A stretch of DNA of 64,000 bases from Paludisphaera rhizosphaerae (GTDB lineage Bacteria; Planctomycetota; Planctomycetia; Isosphaerales; Isosphaeraceae), in NCBI RefSeq assembly GCF_011065895.1, contig NZ_JAALCR010000009.1, positions 124,001 to 188,000 of the forward strand. The letters run 5' to 3'. Of the stretch, positions 8,127-41,719 are shown piece after piece; position 1 is the first letter of the stretch; the number at the start of each line of letters is the position of its first letter. A program made the translations under genes and the position numbers. The notes beneath the pieces were generated by a model, which saw only the letters and a program-made list of their open reading frames with translations, ran no database searches and had not been told where the DNA came from.

Positions 8127-8426
8127 CTCCTCCCGGAACCGGCTCCGGCCGGCCGCGTGGGTTCGCGGCCCGAAACGAATTCGTCGTGTAGTGCGATTGT
8201 AGCGGTACAGCCGGCCTCGCCGCGAGCCCGATCGGGGCGTTGCGGCCGCGTTTGCGGGAATTTCACCGTTAGGTGGGGGCGCGGTGACATCCCGTGGCCG
8301 GGGGTCAGGGGCCGACGCGGGGGGCGTCGGGTCGTGTGTACGTCGGTTCGGTTCGGGTCGGGGAGTCGGGTGCGGCGGTCCTCGATTCAGATCCTATGGA
8401 TGGATGTCGGCTCGGTTCGGCCTCGA
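8127..8426 (-). other. nusA-infB intergenic spacer
   Basis: A 300-base spacer between nusA and infB. It holds the ribosome binding site of infB (GGGAGGAG on the minus strand, about 8127-8134). No protein gene (ylxR or a ribosomal L7Ae-like gene often sits here in other bacteria) and no clear terminator were seen, so read-through from nusA into infB is likely. Confidence 0.5.
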
Positions 8427-31213: not shown

Positions 31214-34200
31214 TCAATCCTTCTTCTCGGCGGGTTGCCCGGTGTCGGCGTTGAAGGTGCCCAGGTCGACGGGCTTGCCGGGTTCGATCGTGAGGTCCTT
31301 TGCCGCGAGGAAGCCGGCGAAGCCGCCGGGGGCTTTCTCGGAACTATATCCCCGCGATCCGTTGGGGCGCTCGTACGTCAGGTTCAGGGCATACAGGACA
31401 TAGGGACCGCCGACGACGGCCCAGCAGTGGAAGGCGCCGGTTTCGTCGATGTCGTCGGATGTGCTGTAGGACGAGAAGGTCGCGGGATGCTGTTCGGAAT
31501 CTCGGACGGTCATGTTCACTCCCCCCCGCGCCGGCCTGCCGTCGCCGTGGACGATCTTTCCTGTGACGAGGACTCGCGGATGAAGCGTGACGACGCGGTC
31601 GGGCCCGGCCTGGACCTTGACGATCGCTGCGGACGCATCCGAGGCCGAATTGACATAGACCCGTCGCGACTCGCCGGGCGCCAGCTTCTCGACGCGGACC
31701 TCGGCCGCTGGCTCGTTGGTCGTGGGATGAAGGCCCGTCCACGACGGCGGCGGCGGCACTCGGCCGATGACGGTCGCCTTGAGAGGTTCGCCCTTCTCAT
31801 CGACGAACTTCAACAGGACCGAGCCGCCGTGGCTGAGGGACAGGTCGCAGGCGAACGGCGCATCTCCGGCGGGGACGTCCACGGGCCTGGCCGCCTGATA
31901 GGCGGTGGAGTCGGTTTGAAAGGCCGTCGGCAAGGGCTTCGGAAACGGGTCTCTCAGCAACGCGGGGGCCCACTTCACGCCGTAGCTCGACAGGTAGGAG
32001 GGATCGTCCGTCCGAGCCAGGACGAAGCCGGCCCCGGGGATTCCCAGCACGCGGAACGTCCCGTCCGCGGCGGTCTGGAAGCGGTCTCGGTGCAACCCGT
32101 TTCGATAGATCATGCCCGACGGTTGACCGAAATACGCGGCGGCCAGCGGATTGTCTTTCGCCGGCGCGTAGTCGACGACGGCCGCGACAGGTTTGCCTTG
32201 GTCCTCGTCGATCAGCTTGCCGACGATCCATCGGCCGCGCCTGAGGTCGAAGTCCCAGGTCGTCGGGCCGCTTGGACCTTTCGCCTTGGTCGGGACGGAG
32301 GCGAAGTAGGGCTGATTGACGAGCGGATGGGTTGAGATCCAGGGCCCGGCGCCGTCGTACGCCGAGGGGGCGATGAGGCGATAACGGCCCTGGGCGTCGG
32401 TCGTCGCGGTGATCCGCGCGGGCGTCTCCCGGCCGTCGTGCTGGTTTCGCGAGGCCGCCACCACGACCCCGGCGATCGGCTCGCGGGATTCGGCGTCGCG
32501 GATGGATCCCTCGATGATCCACGACGGCTCAAGCGTGGTGGTGAAATCCGAGCCGTAGAGGGTCGTCTCGCTCTGGTGAGATCCGAGTTCCGGCCAGAGT
32601 TCGGAGCCGCGGAGGGGTTTCTCGTCCGCCTTGTTGAGGAAGTCCGACATCTCGTGCAGGGCCGCCTCCAGGTTGATGTCTCGCCGCTGGTGCGGCTGCA
32701 TCGGTCTGGCGACGACGCGGACGAGGTGCGGGGCCAGGTCGGGCCGAAGGATCTCGAAGATCGCGAAGCTGTCATAACCCAGGCCCGAGAAGCGGAACCG
32801 GCCGTCGGCGTCGGTGGTCAGGTCGCCGAACCCAAGAGCCTCCTGGATTGGTCCGCCGTCATGCCTTCGCCGTCCTCCCGGGATTGGGAGGGAGGCGTCG
32901 GCGGGGGGAGTTCCCGGCTGGGGCAAGTAAGCCTGACGCAGCTTGACCCTGGCACCGGCGATTGGCCCCCCTTGCGGGTCGACCACGCGGCCGAGGATCG
33001 GCTGATCCTTCTTCGAGAGTTGGATGTCGCCGCTGAGCGAAGGTCCGCGGCTGGAGCTTTTCCAGACCGTTGCACCGGCGACGTACCCCGGCGCGGCGGC
33101 GTAGATCCGGGTGTAGCGGGCCTGGTCGTCCCACTCTGGAGCCGGCTCGAAGTCGGGCATCGAATAACGGCCGTCGGCGTCGGTCTTCGCGGACCGTGAG
33201 TCGAACCGGCGGTTCGGCAGGTATTCCTGGAGACTGACGGCCGGGACAGGACTTCGCCTCCACCGCCAGGCGACGACCGTCGCGCCGGGGATCGGCTTAC
33301 CCTGCTCGTCGACCACCCGTCCCTTGATCATGGCCGGCGGCGGCTGCTGGGCCGCTTCGGGATCCTCGATGCGCCGGCCGGCCTCAGCATTGAAGGTTCC
33401 CAGGTTGATCGGCTTGCCGGGCTCGATCGTAAGCGCGTTGGTGAGGTAAAAGGCGTCGAGGCCGCCTGGAACCTTCTTCGTGGAGGTGCTTCGGGAGTGG
33501 CCGCCGGGATCGCTCGATGTGAGGTTGACGGCGTGCAGGAGATAGGGGCCGCCGACGGGGACCTGGTGTTCGAACCGCCCCTCCTCGTCAAGCTCGAGCA
33601 CAAGATGCGCTTGACCCGTACTTCCCATCCGCCCGTTCGGGGCGAGGTCCAGTTGCACGTCTCCCTTCGCGGGTTTCCCGTCGGCGAGGAGGAGCCGGCC
33701 GACGACTTTCACCGGCCAGTGGAGGGTCACGGTGCGGTCGGAGCCAGCGGTCACCGGGAACGCTGCGCTCAGGAGTCCGCCGTTCCTGGCGCGGATCCAG
33801 ACCGGGCGGGCTTCGTTCCTGGCGAGCGCCAGGATCCGCACCTCGGTAGCGGGGACGTCGCGAGCATGCCGGACCGGGGCGCCGTAAAACGAGGTGGGAG
33901 GGACGCGGCCCGAGACGGTCGCCTCGACGGGTTCACCCTTCTCGTCGACGAACTTCAGGAGGGCTGAGCCGCCGGAATCGATGGCCAGGTCGCATGCGAA
34001 GGGGGCGTCGCCCGCCGGGACGTCCACGGACTTCATAACGTGAAAGTCGTTGGGCATGGTCCGGAACGACGTCGCCAGGACCATCGGGGCCTGCGGTTCG
34101 CGGGCGACAGTCTCTGCGCCAGTTCCCACCAGGTACAACGGTTCATCCGCGCGGGCCAGAACGACCCCAGGTCCCGTGAGACCCAGGACCCGGTAGGCCC

Positions 34201-37200
34201 CGTCCGCGGCGGTCCGGAAGCGCTGACCGTGATATCCGTACAGGAACTTCATGTTCCTCAACGGCAATCCAAAGTACTCGGTGGCGAGCGGGTTGGCCGC
34301 CATCGGGGCGTAGTCGATCGAGCCCGCGACCGGGCGGCCGTCCGGGTCGAGGAGCTTGCCGACAATCCAGCGGCCCCGCTTCAAGTCGAAGTCATACGTC
34401 GCCGAGGCGTTCGGCGGCTTCGTTGCGGCGCCGGGGAGGAAGTAGGGCTGATCGACCTGGGGGTGGACCGAGATCCACGGCGAGCCGCCGTCGAACGCGG
34501 GCGGGGAGATGAGTCGGTATCGGCCCTCGGCGTCGGTCGTCGCCGTGATCCGCGCCGGGAGGTCGCGGCCATCGGTCCGACGGCGCGAAGCCGCCACCAC
34601 GACCCCCGAGATCGGTCGGTGCGTCTCGGCGTCGCGGATGACGCCCTCGAAGATCCGGCCGGGTTCCAGCGTCGTCGTGAACTCGGAGCCGTAGACCAGT
34701 TGCTCGGGCCGTTCGGCCGACGTCGTCGATCCACTGGTCGTCCTCGACACCCCATCCCCAGTGATGAAGTCGGGGATGGCTTCCAGGTCTCCCTCCGCCG
34801 TTGAGAAGGAGGACTTCACGGGGGTCATCGGTCTGGCGAAGACCCGGATGACGTGCGGCGGCATCCCGGGACGGTCGATCTCGAAGATCGTCTCAGCGTC
34901 GTGAGCCAGCCCCGGGAAGCGAAAGCGTCCGTCGGCGTCCGTGGCCAGGCCGTCGAGGCCCAGCGCCTGCTGGATCGGTCCTCCGACCGCACCCTCTCCG
35001 GGACGGTTGAGTGAGGCGTCCGGGACGCGACCTGCTGCGACGGGATTGGCGACCTGCGCCAGGCTCATCAGCCTCAGCCGCACGCGCGCACCGGCCACCG
35101 GCCGACCCTGGACGTCGAGGACCCGACCGACGATCGGGTGGTCTCCCTTTGCGAGACGGATGTCCCGCCCCATGCTGGCCGGGCCGAACTGGGACCTCCA
35201 AACCGACGCACCGACGGCATGACCGGGCGCCGCCGCGCGGAGCAGCGTCAAGCGGGCCTGGTCGTCCCACTCCGGCGCCGGGTCGAAATCCGGCATGGAG
35301 TACCGCCCCTCCGCGTCGGTCGTCGTGGTTCTGGAATCGAACCGACGATCCGGCAGGAACTCGCGCAGGCCGACGCCCGCGCCCTGCCCTCGCCTCCACC
35401 GCCAGGCGACGACGGTGGCGTCGGCGACCGGCTTGTTCTGCTCGTCGGTGACTCGACCTTGGATCGGACCCGCCGCGGGGGGCTGCGCCTGGGTGGTCTT
35501 CGGCTCCTCGATCCGCTGGCCCGTGTCGACGTTGAACGTACCCAGGTCGGCCGTCTGGCCGGGATCGACTTTCAGGTCGCGGCCCAGGGGGAACGATTTG
35601 AAGCTCGGGCGGCCGCCTTGGATTGGGGGCGACGCCGTCACGTCGTAGCCGTCGCCGGGGGGCACGTCCTCGATCCGGAAGCGGCCCTGGTCGTCGAGAT
35701 TCTCGGAACCGACCCCAAACCCTAACGAGGTGCCGTCCTTGAAGGTGGCCGAGTGGCCGAGTCGGACGCGGCCCTGCGTGGGCTTGCCGCCGGAGTCGAC
35801 GAGCCTGCCGGTGACGACGCCCAGCGGTCGCAACGTCGCGACGACGGGCTGACCCTCGGGGACGGCGTCGGCGTCGAGCAGCACGATCGCCCCCAACTTC
35901 CGCGTCGGTTGCCGGATCCGCACCACCCGGCGTTCGCCCGGCGCGAGGCCCCCGATTCGCGTCTCTCCCCGGGCGTCGACGATGAGGGTATTGGACGTCG
36001 TGTTCGGCTCGGCGCCGAGGACGACCACGTCTGGGACCGGCCTTCCGGCCTCGTCGACGGCCCGCAGGAGGATCGACCGGCCGTGGTCGACGCCCAACTC
36101 GCAGGCGAACGACTCGGCCCCGTCGGGGACGACGACGGCCTTCAAGGTGTTGTAAAATTGCGGCGTGATGCGACCGTAAGTCAGCAATGTGTTTTTGTTG
36201 CCGGTCGTCGCGTGGGCGATGCCCTCGGCGCCGACGCCGGTGCGGTAGTCGGTTGCGGGCCTGCACCGGGCCGCGACCACGCCGTCGCCGGGGAGGCCGG
36301 GCACGCGGAAGCGACCCTCGGCGTCGGTCGAGTATCGTTCTTGCCAGGGGAGCGTGTAGGCTTTCGGGAATTCGGGCCGGTTCTCGGCGTGGGGGTTCGA
36401 GAGCATCGGGTAGTAGTCGATCAGCGCGGAGACGGGCTTGCCGCTCTTCGCGTCCACGACCCGGCCCTCGATCCAGATCCCGCGTCGGAGGGCGATGTCG
36501 AACGTCGTCGGGGCGATGCCGGGCGATGGGGGGACGGTCTGACCGTCCCGCGTCAAGAACAAGAAGTAGGGGCGGTCGAGCGGCGGATAGACGGCCAGCC
36601 GATGTCCCTTCTCGCCCTCCTTGGGAAGCCCGTCGAGCCGATATCGGCCCTGGGCGTCGGACTGCGCCCAGATGTGGCCGGCCACCAGGGAGCGTGCGTC
36701 GGAGATCGATCGAGCCGTCACGATCGCGCCGGGGATCGGTTCGTTCGTCTCCATGTCGCGGATGGTCCCCTCGACGAGCCGCGAGGGCTCGAGGGTGATG
36801 GTGCAGGGCGTGCCCTGGAGTTCGCCGTCGTCGAATGCGGGGGCGACGCCGACCCCCGGGGCCGCGGCGATCCTGGGCATCGTCCTCAGGAAGACGGTCG
36901 TGGCCTTCCGCACCGTCCCCGGCGCGGAGACTTCCAGGACGGCCGCGTCTTCGCGAGAGAGGCCGTCGATTCGGAAGCGGCCGTCGGCGTCGGTCGTCGC
37001 GGGCTCGGGCTGAACCGCCCAGCCGGTGATTCGCGTGGCGAGGGAGAGGTCCGGGAGCATCTTCCCGACCAGGTTGGAACGGTCGATCAGATAGGCGTGG
37101 CTGACCCGAACGCGGGCCCCGGCGACCGGGCGGCCCTCATGGTCGACGATCCGGCCCTCGATCGGCGCCGGATCGGCCGTCGACATCCTCACCGGGACGC

Positions 37201-38506
37201 CTTCGGCGAGCCGTTCGGACAACGGGGCCGCGGGGCGGAATCCCGTCGCCTTGACGACGTACGTGACTTCCTTGCCCAGACCGGCGACGTCGTCGGGCAC
37301 GCGGAAAAGGCCCTCGGCGTCGGTCGTCATGCGGGCGACCTCGTGGCCGACGGGGAGGAGTTCCGAGCCGTTCCGCTGGAAACCGCGCGCGATCACGGTC
37401 GCCCCAGCGAGGGGCTTGCCCTCCGCGTCGACGACGCGGCCGTGGGTGGCGTCGAGCTTCGGCGGAGCCGGCTCCTCGGGATCGGGGGCCTCCGGCGCTT
37501 CGGCCCGGGCGGGAGGCTCGGGATGGGGACGATTGCCGATGCTGAGCAGTCCGGCGAGAGCCGTCGAGGCCAGGCCGGCGGTCAGCACGGCGAGGAACGC
37601 CAGCCGGCCGGCGCGAGTGGAGAGGGGGCGTGAGGCGTCGAGGATCCGCGCGATCCGGCGCCTCAGCGGGGAGCGTCGGCCGATCATGTGGACGGCGGCC
37701 GGCGACGAAGGCGGCAGGGAGCGGCCGGCGATGGTGACGAGGAGTTCGGCGTAGCGCGTCCGGTCGGCGCCAAGGTCCACCGCCACATCGTCGCAGACCT
37801 CCTCGGCCGTCGTCTCGACGCGTCGCGAGAGCACCCACGAGAGGGGCTGGAACCAAAGCGCGGCCGTCGCCAGCCGCCTGGCCAGGTTCCACCAGCCGTC
37901 GCGGCGGGCCAGGTGCGCCAGCTCGTGGACGAGCGCGTCGCGTGGGTCGTCGTCCATCTCCTCGGGCAGCAGGATCATCGGCCGGATGAGGCCGTCGAGG
38001 CAGGGGCTCGACAGGAACGGGCTTCGCCGAGCGGGCGGCGGCGGCACGCCCAGCCGTCCGGCGATCGCGTCGCACGCAGCCTGCACGCCGGGCTCGACGG
38101 CGACGGCCTTCGCCCGGACCCGAGACATCCTCGCCTGCTGGACGAGCATCCGGGCCAGCAGGAAGAGCGTGCCGAGGACCCAGAGCGCTACGCCGGCCGT
38201 CGGGGCGATCGTTAGGAGATCGTACCCCGGGAGTTCGTCGATCGCAGCGGTGGCCGGCGGCAGCGATGTTTCCGGAGTGACAGGCGACGACGACTCGGAG
38301 CTGACGGGGACCGGGCCGGCGGGGATCGCGACCCGCCATTTCACGTCGTTGTAGGCTGGGGGGATGAACACCCCGGCGGATTCGGCATCGACGAACTCTG
38401 CCAGGCTCGGCTTCAGAGTTTCTTCTTTGGCCTGGGGCAGCCGGATGGCGAGGCCCTCGACCCCCATCACCGAAAGCAATGTCGATGCGAGCGGGCAGAG
38501 CAGCAC
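31214..38506 (-). CDS. M56 (BlaR1-type) metallopeptidase with giant tandem carboxypeptidase-regulatory repeats
   Basis: The open frame gives up to 2430 residues after an in-frame TGA (38552-38554) that separates it from its natural N terminus (see 38552-38671). Residues 95-120 are a TM helix; the M56 zinc site is HELAH (about 194-198) with a likely third ligand Glu in TTAEEVCDD; another TM lies near 320-345. The rest is three long extracytoplasmic units (about 350-1000, 1010-1705, 1715-2430), each built of carboxypeptidase-regulatory-like beta domains (GRVVDxxGKPxAGAxV; TDADGRFR) and each closing on a PG....LGTFN...G motif. BlaR1 relatives sense a ligand and trigger cleavage of BlaI-type repressors; the upstream blaI-like gene fits. 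Without readthrough or a GTG 38506 restart, the product may lack its first TM segment. Confidence 0.85.
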   Translation of the reverse strand: MLLCPLASTLLSVMGVEGLAIRLPQAKEETLKPSLAEFVDAESAGVFIPPAYNDVKWRVAIPAGPVPVSSESSSPVTPETSLPPATAAIDELPGYDLLTIAPTAGVALWVLGTLFLLARMLVQQARMSRVRAKAVAVEPGVQAACDAIAGRLGVPPPPARRSPFLSSPCLDGLIRPMILLPEEMDDDPRDALVHELAHLARRDGWWNLARRLATAALWFQPLSWVLSRRVETTAEEVCDDVAVDLGADRTRYAELLVTIAGRSLPPSSPAAVHMIGRRSPLRRRIARILDASRPLSTRAGRLAFLAVLTAGLASTALAGLLSIGNRPHPEPPARAEAPEAPDPEEPAPPKLDATHGRVVDAEGKPLAGATVIARGFQRNGSELLPVGHEVARMTTDAEGLFRVPDDVAGLGKEVTYVVKATGFRPAAPLSERLAEGVPVRMSTADPAPIEGRIVDHEGRPVAGARVRVSHAYLIDRSNLVGKMLPDLSLATRITGWAVQPEPATTDADGRFRIDGLSREDAAVLEVSAPGTVRKATTVFLRTMPRIAAAPGVGVAPAFDDGELQGTPCTITLEPSRLVEGTIRDMETNEPIPGAIVTARSISDARSLVAGHIWAQSDAQGRYRLDGLPKEGEKGHRLAVYPPLDRPYFLFLTRDGQTVPPSPGIAPTTFDIALRRGIWIEGRVVDAKSGKPVSALIDYYPMLSNPHAENRPEFPKAYTLPWQERYSTDAEGRFRVPGLPGDGVVAARCRPATDYRTGVGAEGIAHATTGNKNTLLTYGRITPQFYNTLKAVVVPDGAESFACELGVDHGRSILLRAVDEAGRPVPDVVVLGAEPNTTSNTLIVDARGETRIGGLAPGERRVVRIRQPTRKLGAIVLLDADAVPEGQPVVATLRPLGVVTGRLVDSGGKPTQGRVRLGHSATFKDGTSLGFGVGSENLDDQGRFRIEDVPPGDGYDVTASPPIQGGRPSFKSFPLGRDLKVDPGQTADLGTFNVDTGQRIEEPKTTQAQPPAAGPIQGRVTDEQNKPVADATVVAWRWRRGQGAGVGLREFLPDRRFDSRTTTTDAEGRYSMPDFDPAPEWDDQARLTLLRAAAPGHAVGASVWRSQFGPASMGRDIRLAKGDHPIVGRVLDVQGRPVAGARVRLRLMSLAQVANPVAAGRVPDASLNRPGEGAVGGPIQQALGLDGLATDADGRFRFPGLAHDAETIFEIDRPGMPPHVIRVFARPMTPVKSSFSTAEGDLEAIPDFITGDGVSRTTSGSTTSAERPEQLVYGSEFTTTLEPGRIFEGVIRDAETHRPISGVVVAASRRRTDGRDLPARITATTDAEGRYRLISPPAFDGGSPWISVHPQVDQPYFLPGAATKPPNASATYDFDLKRGRWIVGKLLDPDGRPVAGSIDYAPMAANPLATEYFGLPLRNMKFLYGYHGQRFRTAADGAYRVLGLTGPGVVLARADEPLYLVGTGAETVAREPQAPMVLATSFRTMPNDFHVMKSVDVPAGDAPFACDLAIDSGGSALLKFVDEKGEPVEATVSGRVPPTSFYGAPVRHARDVPATEVRILALARNEARPVWIRARNGGLLSAAFPVTAGSDRTVTLHWPVKVVGRLLLADGKPAKGDVQLDLAPNGRMGSTGQAHLVLELDEEGRFEHQVPVGGPYLLHAVNLTSSDPGGHSRSTSTKKVPGGLDAFYLTNALTIEPGKPINLGTFNAEAGRRIEDPEAAQQPPPAMIKGRVVDEQGKPIPGATVVAWRWRRSPVPAVSLQEYLPNRRFDSRSAKTDADGRYSMPDFEPAPEWDDQARYTRIYAAAPGYVAGATVWKSSSRGPSLSGDIQLSKKDQPILGRVVDPQGGPIAGARVKLRQAYLPQPGTPPADASLPIPGGRRRHDGGPIQEALGFGDLTTDADGRFRFSGLGYDSFAIFEILRPDLAPHLVRVVARPMQPHQRRDINLEAALHEMSDFLNKADEKPLRGSELWPELGSHQSETTLYGSDFTTTLEPSWIIEGSIRDAESREPIAGVVVAASRNQHDGRETPARITATTDAQGRYRLIAPSAYDGAGPWISTHPLVNQPYFASVPTKAKGPSGPTTWDFDLRRGRWIVGKLIDEDQGKPVAAVVDYAPAKDNPLAAAYFGQPSGMIYRNGLHRDRFQTAADGTFRVLGIPGAGFVLARTDDPSYLSSYGVKWAPALLRDPFPKPLPTAFQTDSTAYQAARPVDVPAGDAPFACDLSLSHGGSVLLKFVDEKGEPLKATVIGRVPPPPSWTGLHPTTNEPAAEVRVEKLAPGESRRVYVNSASDASAAIVKVQAGPDRVVTLHPRVLVTGKIVHGDGRPARGGVNMTVRDSEQHPATFSSYSTSDDIDETGAFHCWAVVGGPYVLYALNLTYERPNGSRGYSSEKAPGGFAGFLAAKDLTIEPGKPVDLGTFNADTGQPAEKKD

Positions 38507-38551
38507 GGCCGCGAGGGTCGTCCGGTAGACGGCCGATTGCAGGGCCGGGCC

Positions 38552-38671
38552 TCATCGTCGCGCGGCGCGGCCGGCGATCAGGCCCAGGATCAGGAGGACC
38601 GTCGACTGCGCCAGCCAGGTCAGGCCGAATCCGCCGGCGGTCAGGGCGAACCGAGTCAGGGCGTCGCTCAT
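38552..38671 (-). pseudogene. N-terminal fragment of the M56 gene ending at an in-frame TGA
   Basis: ATG 38671 overlaps the blaI-like stop (ATGA), as in normal blaI-blaR pairs, and encodes 39 residues with one TM helix (GLTWLAQSTVLLILGLIAG) of the kind that opens M56 sensors. The frame then meets TGA at 38554-38552 and continues in exactly the same frame through QSAVYRTTLAAVLLCPLAST into the M56 core. A single C-to-T change of a CGA Arg codon (after two CGA-type Arg codons) explains it. Sequencing error, a true nonsense mutation or readthrough cannot be separated from this sequence. Confidence 0.75.
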
Positions 38672-39063
38672 TCCGCACCCCCCTTCCCTTCCTTGCGGGC
38701 CGCGTCGATCAGCCGCTTGAGTTCGTCCAGCTCCTGGCGAGAAAGCCCCTCGTCGCGGATCAGGTGCGCGACCAGCCCGCCGACGTCGCCGCCGAAGACG
38801 CGGTCCAGCAGGTCTCGGGTGGCCGACCGCTTGACCCGGTCTTCCTTCAGCTTCGCGAAGAAGACGAACGTGCGGCCGTCGGCCTCATGACTGACCGCCC
38901 CCTTCGCCTCCAACTGCCGCAAGAGCGTCTGCACCGTGCTGTGGGCCACGTCCTCGCCGCGCTCGTTGAGCGCGTCGGTGACCTCGCGAGCGCCGATCCG
39001 ACCCCGCTCCCACAGCACCTGCATGATCCGGAACTGCAACCGACCGAGCTGCGCCTCCGCCAT
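38668..39063 (-). CDS. BlaI/MecI/CopY-family transcriptional repressor
   Basis: 131 residues from ATG 39063 (GGAGG 9 bases upstream); the frame is open to 39117 but the core starts at LGRLQFRIMQVLWERG. Winged-helix DNA-binding region with DVAHSTVQTLLRQLEAKGAVSHE, then a helical dimer tail. Family members repress their own operon and are cut by a partner M56 protease after signal sensing. The partner gene overlaps by 4 bases. The usual cleavage region is in the Lys/Arg-rich segment near residues 70-85 by analogy only. Confidence 0.93.
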   Translation of the reverse strand: MAEAQLGRLQFRIMQVLWERGRIGAREVTDALNERGEDVAHSTVQTLLRQLEAKGAVSHEADGRTFVFFAKLKEDRVKRSATRDLLDRVFGGDVGGLVAHLIRDEGLSRQELDELKRLIDAARKEGKGGAE

Positions 39064-39093
39064 CGCCGAGTTCCTCCCTGGGGCCGCCGTTTC

Positions 39094-39123
39094 GTCTACC
39101 AGAGTAGATTTACTCAAGTAGAC
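39094..39123. promoter_or_regulatory. Candidate BlaI operator
   Basis: A 30-base site bounded by GTCTAC (39094-39099) and GTAGAC (39118-39123). It contains two adjacent dyads with equal geometry, CTAC-CAGA-GTAG (39096-39107) and TTAC-TCAA-GTAG (39110-39121). It lies 31 bases upstream of the blaI-like start at 39063. BlaI/MecI proteins bind short dyads as dimers, so autoregulation is expected. It also lies upstream of the divergent TPR gene (39269) and could affect both. Confidence 0.6.
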
Positions 39124-39268
39124 GATCCTGTCAAGGGGCTGTGATGACGTCTTGGCATGTCTGGGCGGGGACTGCTAGGATGGTCTGGTAATCTCGGTGA
39201 AGATCGCGCCGAGAGGGGATGTGGACGAAGGATCGACATCCTGGCAACAACGAGGACGGGGGGTGCAC

Positions 39269-41719
39269 ATGGTCGGGCCGATCCGTTGGTCTGCGACGAG
39301 TCGGGCGTGCTGTGCGACGATCGCGCTGGCGTGCAGTTCGGCCGGCGTGGGGCGGTCGTGGGCTCAGGCCCCGGCTCCTAACGTGGCCGAGGAGCCCAAG
39401 GCGCAGGCTCCGGCCGCCGAGCAGGCCAAGCCGAAGCCGGATCTCTCGGAGTTGTTCGACCGTCCGGGGAACGACCCGCCGAAGCCGTTCGTGCCGATGA
39501 ACCCGCAGACGGTCGAGGACCGCAACCGGGTGGAGGCCGTCCGGCTGTACTCGGCCGCCCGGGCGCTCGAGGATCGTCGCGCGTTCAACGACGCGGTCGA
39601 CACGCTGCTGCAGGCGTACAAGCTCGACCCGGAATCGGTGGCGATCGCGCGGCGGCTGAGTCGGCTGTACGTCGGCCCGCTGGCCCGTCCCGACCTGGCC
39701 GTCGAGTACGGTCGCAAGGCCCTGGCCGCCGACCCCAGCGACACCGAGACCCTCGACCGCCTCTTCCAGTTCTACGTCCAGCGCGACGAGCTGCGGCAGT
39801 GCGAGACGCTCCTGCAAGACGTTCTGAACAACCCCAAGCTGGACGCCCACGCGCCGGGGCGGATCGTCGCCTGGAACGAGCTGGGACGTCTTTATTCGAC
39901 CGGCCTGAACGACCCAGCCAAGGCGGCCGACGCCTTCGCCAAGGTGATGGCGGAGCTGGACGAACGCCAGTCGATGAAGCTCACCCCGGCCGACGTCACG
40001 CGGATCCTCGGCCCCGAGCCGGCCGCCGCATACCTGGCCTTCGGCCTCGTCTTCCTCTCCGCCAAGCGCGACGACCTGGCGATCAAGGCCTTCGAACGCG
40101 GCCTGGTCTACGACGATTCCAATCCCCAGATCCCTCTGCTGCTCTCCGAGACCTACCTGAAGGCCAACCAGGGCCCGAAGGCCCTGGCGCTCGTCGACCG
40201 CTTCCTCAAGCGGCAGCCCCAGGGGATTGAGGGCTATGAGCTTCTCGCCCGCGTGCTGAAGGCGCTGAACCGAGAGGACGAAATCACCCCCCGGCTGGAG
40301 GAAGCCGCCCGGCTCGACTCCAAGAACGTGCCGCTGCAATACGTCCTGGCCGACCGCTACCGTGAGACGGGCCAGGTCGACAAGGCTGACGCCCTCTACA
40401 AGGCGCTCCTGGCCAGCCAGCCGACGCCTCAGACCTATCGCGCGCTGGCGGCCTCGCTGGTGAAGCGGAAGAAGGTCGGCGAACTGCTGAAGGTGCTCTG
40501 CGAGGCCATCGGCCAGCGCCAGGGCGTGGAGGCCGTCGGCGGCCAGATCGAAGCCGTCGCGTCCGACGATTCACTCGCCGAGGAGATTCTCGACGAGGGG
40601 CTCAAACAGCTTTCCGCCGACCCGCCGGGCCTCCCCCAGGCGCCGGCCTTCGCGATCCTCGCCCGGATCGCCATGCCCGACCGTCGCGACCTCAAGCCGA
40701 GCCGGCTGGAACGGCTGCTGAAGCTCCAGCGGATGATGCTGGCGAAGTCGCCGAACCCCATGCTCTACCTGGAAGTCATCGACACCGAGCAGCGGCTCAA
40801 GAACTACACCGAGGCCGCCGCCACGCTGGAGGAGATGCTCGCCAAGTACCCCGGCGAGCGCAAGGCCCGGACCCTCGCCTTCCTGTCGAGCTTCTACCGC
40901 AAGGGCGGCAAGGACGAAAAGGCTCTGGAGGTCGCCCGCGAGGCCCTGAAGCTCAACTCCCCCGAACCCGACGAACGCATCCAGATCGCCAACACCCTCG
41001 CCGAGCTGGGCAAGCTTGACGAGGCCGTGCCGGTCTACCAGAAGCTCATCCAGGACGAGCCCGGCAACGCCGCCTATGAGTTCATGCTCGGCGGCCTGCT
41101 GACCAAGTACGGCCGCAACGACGAGGCCGTCAAGCTCTTCCGCGAGATGCTCAAGCGCAACGCGGGCAAGGACGAGCTGGCCAAGCTGATCCACTCGAAC
41201 CTGTCGATCGTCTACGTCAACCAGGGGGACTTCGCCAAGGGCGAGGCCGAGTTGGAGACCGCTCTGGAGCAGTTCCCCGACGACCCAGGCGTCAACAACG
41301 ATCTTGGCTACCTCTACGCCGACCAGGGCAAGAACCTGGAGAAGGCCGAGGCCATGATCCGCAAGGCCCTCAAGGACGAACCGGACAACTACGCGTATCT
41401 CGACAGTCTGGGCTGGGCCCTGTTCAAGCAGGGGAAGTACAAGGACGCCGTCGAGCCGCTCCAGAAGGCCGTCGACCTGCACAAGGAGGCTGAGAAGCGC
41501 GGGGCCGCCTCCCCGGACGCCACCCTGCCGGACCACCTCGGCGACGTCTTCCTGAAGCTGCAGGAGATCGAGAAGGCCCGCACCCTGTGGAAGGAGGCCG
41601 AGGAGGCCGCCTCCCGCAGCGAGCCCCCCGACAAGAAGCTGGGCGAGATCCGCAAGAAACTCGCCGACCTGGACGCCGTCGAGCAGGCTCCCAAGGCTTC
41701 CAACGGCCTCAAGCCCTGA
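39269..41719 (+). CDS. Secreted tetratricopeptide-repeat protein
   Basis: 816 residues from ATG 39269 (G-rich ribosome binding site just upstream), where a signal-like segment starts (CCATIALACSSAGVG). Then a Pro/Ala linker and a long array of TPRs, e.g. LLQAYKLDPESVAIARRL, AFGLVFLSAKRDDLAIKAFERGL, EFMLGGLLTKYGRNDEAVKLF and DSLGWALFKQGKYKDAVEPLQKAV. The last repeats resemble those of PEP-CTERM/TPR or PrsT-like scaffolds. No catalytic domain. A protein-interaction scaffold in the periplasm is likely. Confidence 0.88.
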   Translation: MVGPIRWSATSRACCATIALACSSAGVGRSWAQAPAPNVAEEPKAQAPAAEQAKPKPDLSELFDRPGNDPPKPFVPMNPQTVEDRNRVEAVRLYSAARALEDRRAFNDAVDTLLQAYKLDPESVAIARRLSRLYVGPLARPDLAVEYGRKALAADPSDTETLDRLFQFYVQRDELRQCETLLQDVLNNPKLDAHAPGRIVAWNELGRLYSTGLNDPAKAADAFAKVMAELDERQSMKLTPADVTRILGPEPAAAYLAFGLVFLSAKRDDLAIKAFERGLVYDDSNPQIPLLLSETYLKANQGPKALALVDRFLKRQPQGIEGYELLARVLKALNREDEITPRLEEAARLDSKNVPLQYVLADRYRETGQVDKADALYKALLASQPTPQTYRALAASLVKRKKVGELLKVLCEAIGQRQGVEAVGGQIEAVASDDSLAEEILDEGLKQLSADPPGLPQAPAFAILARIAMPDRRDLKPSRLERLLKLQRMMLAKSPNPMLYLEVIDTEQRLKNYTEAAATLEEMLAKYPGERKARTLAFLSSFYRKGGKDEKALEVAREALKLNSPEPDERIQIANTLAELGKLDEAVPVYQKLIQDEPGNAAYEFMLGGLLTKYGRNDEAVKLFREMLKRNAGKDELAKLIHSNLSIVYVNQGDFAKGEAELETALEQFPDDPGVNNDLGYLYADQGKNLEKAEAMIRKALKDEPDNYAYLDSLGWALFKQGKYKDAVEPLQKAVDLHKEAEKRGAASPDATLPDHLGDVFLKLQEIEKARTLWKEAEEAASRSEPPDKKLGEIRKKLADLDAVEQAPKASNGLKP

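Follow-up and report, generated by a model that had tools for sequence, protein, structure and literature searches.

Within the window, as we call the whole stretch of 64,000 nucleotides that was analysed, the minus strand carries a blaI-like repressor gene followed by a blaR-like gene whose frame is interrupted near its beginning (Table 1). The repressor matches the Pfam family Penicillinase_R with an E-value of 1.9e-31 over profile positions 1-114 of 115, and its TGA (38670-38668) overlaps the ATG of the blaR-like gene (38671-38669) as ATGA, in agreement with the overlap that had been proposed in the original prediction; a G-rich stretch precedes this ATG. From there the frame reads MSDALTRFALTAGGFGLTWLAQSTVLLILGLIAGRAARR before the TGA and then resumes with GPALQSAVYRTTLAAVLLCP, running on to a final stop at 31216-31214. 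When read through, it comprises 2486 codons including the final stop, and stops are met only at codon 40 and at the last codon. Reading of the frame thus bears out the claim that an in-frame TGA (38554-38552) stands after one transmembrane (TM) helix and is followed in the same frame by an M56 continuation. Rescue by a frameshift is ruled out, since the pieces before and after the TGA share one frame.

Table 1. Features of the blaI/blaR-like locus, in window coordinates.
Feature	Coordinates	Strand	Evidence or remark
Two tandem interrupted palindromes TCTACNNNNGTAGA	39095..39122	.	39095-39108 exact, 39109-39122 with one mismatch
Intact blaI-like repressor gene (ATG 39063, 131 codons and a stop)	38668..39063	-	Penicillinase_R
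blaR-like gene, first 39 codons, one TM-like segment (peak 38629-38573)	38555..38671	-	
In-frame TGA, codon 40 of the blaR-like gene	38552..38554	-	Orthologue alignment
Same-frame blaR-like continuation, 2445 codons plus final stop	31214..38551	-	Three more TM-like regions, M56, repeats
GTG, first ATG/GTG/TTG past the TGA	38504..38506	-	Inside the second TM-like segment

The continuation matches the Pfam family Peptidase_M56 with an E-value of 2.1e-20 (73.5 bits against a cut-off of 31), and the motif HELAH, at 37927 (codon 249), lies within this peptidase domain. TM-like peaks are found at codons 15-33, 53-71, 155-177 (two overlapping) and 357-375, and the family CarboxypepD_reg matches seven stretches of the continuation. 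In fact, between 31214 and 37500 about 2000 residues of carboxypeptidase-regulatory-like repeats take the place of a beta-lactam sensor; the open frame of the orthologue in genome G004 is of similar length (2462), while those of the orthologues in G002, G003 and G005 are shorter (1133-1542). The M56 domain and the adjoining BlaI-type repressor are what defines a BlaR1-like M56 sensor. However, the features of BlaR1 proper, the beta-lactam sensor, were not found: Pfam detects no penicillin-binding domain at E 0.001 over the 2445 residues of the continuation, and the NCBIfam blaR1 model, scored on a 350-residue piece of the protein, gives 46.5 bits where 400 are required. The gene product is thus a BlaR-like M56 sensor and not BlaR1 proper, so that the name blaR is to be taken at the family level only. 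Together, the blaI-like and blaR-like genes make up a BlaI/BlaR-type pair of a planctomycete that probably belongs to the Isosphaeraceae.

Upstream of blaI, the tandem palindromes are a candidate BlaI operator. Against an expectation of 0.38, the pattern TCTACNNNNGTAGA is matched twice in the window, a number reached by 1 of 100 shuffles, this being a post hoc statistic as the pattern was derived from the same sequence. On the minus strand, a promoter scan of 38300-39400 returned nothing promoter-like.

Codon composition alone did not pick out the interruption, which ranks only 19th among the 28 listed for the window, five of them being the opposite strand of the same blaR-like gene, and the scan is too noisy to be used in the search for further split genes in the window; the case for a split gene therefore rests on homology. 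We have searched 59 genomes, the window's own included, with the blaR-like protein and obtained matches in 51. Clear orthologues were found in eight other genomes (E 9e-83 or better, 50-63% identity), and the comparison at the stop covers these eight, the next match having an E-value of 2.3e-25 and such weaker matches standing outside it. All eight are open through the TGA codon, the aligned codons in L002 to L009 being CGC, CGG, AGG, CGC, CGG, TCG, TGC and CGG, that is, Arg in six, Ser in one and Cys in one; the DNA alignment took in the window and six of the eight. The 13 loci of a second collection, made of genome contigs, are open too, with Arg, Ser, His or Lys at this column. Four of them (L048, L049, L050 and L051) share start region and identity with L006, L005, L007 and L009 and are apparently the same genes, which leaves at most 17 independent loci for comparison. 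Codons 1-39 are homologous to the start of all eight orthologues, with 16 to 27 identical residues in 31 to 39 aligned, and the stop falls after TM helix 1, just before a conserved GPA/GSA..QS..YR stretch.

It had been stated beforehand that a split gene would be refuted by homologues in which a natural stop and a start stand at this very site, and none was found among the eight orthologues or the 13 further loci. As all of these are open, the stop is private to this genome and corresponds to no conserved start or stop; its absence from both sets is the pattern of a recent nonsense pseudogene. The further suggestion of a single C-to-T change in a CGA codon is no more than plausible: the column most often holds Arg, but Ser, Cys and, at more distant loci, His and Lys also occur there.

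The conservation of the sequence on both sides of the stop bears on its age. In respect to G004, the window has 27 identical residues among the 39 that precede the stop, 29 among the 40 that directly follow it and 183 among the 304 of the rest, and in respect to G002, which together with G004 holds the two nearest orthologues, the figures are 26 of 39, 28 of 40 and 190 of 286. For the other six orthologues, identity to the window is 46-57% over codons 1-39 and 60-78% over the next 40 codons. A lower likeness over codons 1-39 is usual in this family and does not point to decay: identity over these codons ranges from 46 to 69% between the window and the orthologues and from 38 to 79% among the 28 pairs of intact orthologues, and the share of changes at third positions is 0.36-0.47 with the window and 0.24-0.48 among intact pairs. 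Since codons 1-39 are no less conserved here than between intact orthologues, the stop appears to be recent, on a comparison in which the closest orthologues, at 62-63% identity, are too distant to gauge selection since it arose.

A private stop of this kind could also be a consensus error, or a minority variant, in the assembly, the gene being intact in the organism. We regard this as a possible but distinctly less probable explanation. It agrees with the genome being a draft in 110 contigs, with a single stop codon in an otherwise open frame of 2486 codons with undecayed flanks, and with the blaR-like gene being intact in every relative examined. However, errors that create stops are not frequent in this assembly: within the matched domains, no inner stops occur in the 72 kinase matches, in the SBP_bac_10 matches listed (152 found) or in the 17 other matches of the blaR-like M56 protein in the same genome. 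Such counts see the matched domain only and miss a stop ahead of it, the blaR-like gene itself scoring as having none, and the base rate is a rough one in which two large families, kinase and SBP_bac_10, stand in for a genome-wide figure. In the relatives, a hand count gives 3 of the 150 M56 matches listed with inner stops; one M56 match in a relative (G009:C482:5422-6246) has two inner TGA codons.

The gene seems to be dispensable. Among the five congeners, G001 (completeness listed as 100%) lacks a match to the blaR-like protein at E 1e-40, its best being 3.6e-22, within a genus sample of six genomes with one assembly per species. Together with the 17 other matches in the own genome, this makes a loss look tolerable. 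Draft assemblies are generally expected to carry few substitution errors, and this, the gene missing in a congener and the base-rate checks lead us to prefer a real mutation. We thus consider it probable, short of a confident assignment, that one private and recent nonsense substitution has struck a dispensable blaR-like gene.

Programmed recoding of the UGA as selenocysteine or another residue we consider extremely unlikely. The frame is indeed open on either side of the UGA, and the G028 orthologue, alone among the eight, has Cys (TGC) at the stop column, as expected of a selenocysteine/cysteine pair; the column is nevertheless variable among orthologues and further loci. SelA has no match in the genome, a control search over 14 genomes having found it in two, E. 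coli and M. jannaschii, and the eight matches of the SelB model all fall under the cut-off, the best with 166.6 against 242.25 bits. The tRNA-Sec model has a single match over its cut-off (49.3 against 47), which ARAGORN calls as a tRNA-Ser with anticodon tga, and the model also has matches in all 14 control genomes. No UCA anticodon is present among the tRNA genes called by ARAGORN in loci spanning the 69 Rfam tRNA places, and three weak places with no call at default settings (C4:35201, C1:377286 and C15:63413) yielded none under looser settings, at which such calls are uncertain. The 61 bases from the UGA onwards fold with a z-score of -0.36, 67 of 200 shuffles doing at least as well. Hence the genome was not found to hold the SelA, SelB and tRNA-Sec expected for a selenoprotein, nor the window a stable hairpin just after the UGA. 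A genome-wide reassignment of UGA is not indicated either, as TGA is an ordinary stop in the window, where it ends 24 of 32 long open frames (chosen by length and uncurated).

The survey of tRNA genes also revealed a dense array of 22 near a contig end (L099:14986-17339), with four more at L099:337-724. Many tRNA genes of L099 repeat anticodons that are present elsewhere in the genome, and the array is perhaps of a mobile or phage type. Within the window, ARAGORN calls a tRNA-Pro (ggg) at 8288-8367, which may be spurious, as the Rfam tRNA search lists nothing at that site of contig C9.

Translation could also restart in frame at GTG 38506 or soon after, giving a sensor that lacks TM helix 1 and keeps the M56 domain and the repeats. 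The codons GTG 38506, TTG 38479, GTG 38470 and ATG 38467 all lie within 90 bases of the TGA, and the M56 core with its HELAH motif is well downstream of them. By eye, however, none of the four is preceded by a well-placed purine-rich site, a start at GTG 38506 would clip the second TM-like segment (38515-38459), and no orthologue of the eight has a stop at this codon, all keeping helix 1 in an open frame. We therefore regard a restart as unlikely. Less likely still is a leaky or regulated UGA, at which the sensor would be divided between a peptide with one helix and an M56 protein made by restart or readthrough, so that readthrough or reinitiation would determine how much full sensor is present. 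A restart in another frame, at an ATG overlapping the TGA, was rejected: the 472 open codons of this frame match no NCBIfam family at E 0.01. In the part compared, five of the eight orthologues have stops in this frame and three keep it open, and given these stops and the missing family match we take it as a GC-rich shadow frame. Four outcomes had originally been envisaged, namely nonsense mutation, assembly error, restart and readthrough: the first two together are now favoured, restart is weakened and programmed recoding is nearly excluded.

Under the favoured nonsense mutation, a single recent base substitution would have created TGA at codon 40, in a variable spot of the short stretch that links TM helices 1 and 2, and translation would end after a one-helix peptide of 39 residues, so that little or nothing of the M56 peptidase sensor would be left. 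If the pair works as BlaR1 and its repressor do, a signal would no longer inactivate BlaI, and its targets would remain repressed. The analysis shows the stop itself, a frame that stays open behind it, relatives that lack the stop and sequence conserved on either side of it, and we infer that the base is real, that the gene yields no useful amount of protein and that BlaI is affected in this manner.

In practice, automatic annotation will probably either place the start of the blaR-like protein too far downstream or label the gene a pseudogene. If the mutation is real, the locus is one example of a blaI-type repressor that has lost its sensor, the genome having 17 further M56-protein matches; if the protein were still made, leaky stops in planctomycetes could be tested on it. 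Nonsense mutations and consensus errors are both ordinary, and beyond annotation the import is small. The present gene does not appear in the titles and abstract openings of the listed literature matches on BlaI, BlaR1, M56, the repeat domain, planctomycetes and blaR1/blaI nonsense changes. For S. aureus, a survey of bla genes based on internal fragments reports, in the part of its text considered here, blaR1 and blaI without nonsense or frameshift changes (PMC3102608).

In its private stop, the intact frame behind it and the intact orthologues, the locus resembles other pseudogenes with a single nonsense codon, or assembly errors of the same appearance. As to its architecture, it follows the BlaI/MecI - BlaR1/MecR1 pairs, in which a repressor gene is followed by an overlapping gene for an M56 peptidase with several TM segments and an HExxH motif, and in which tandem palindromes lie upstream of the repressor. 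Unlike in BlaR1 and MecR1, the C-terminal part is here a very long run of carboxypeptidase-regulatory-like repeats.
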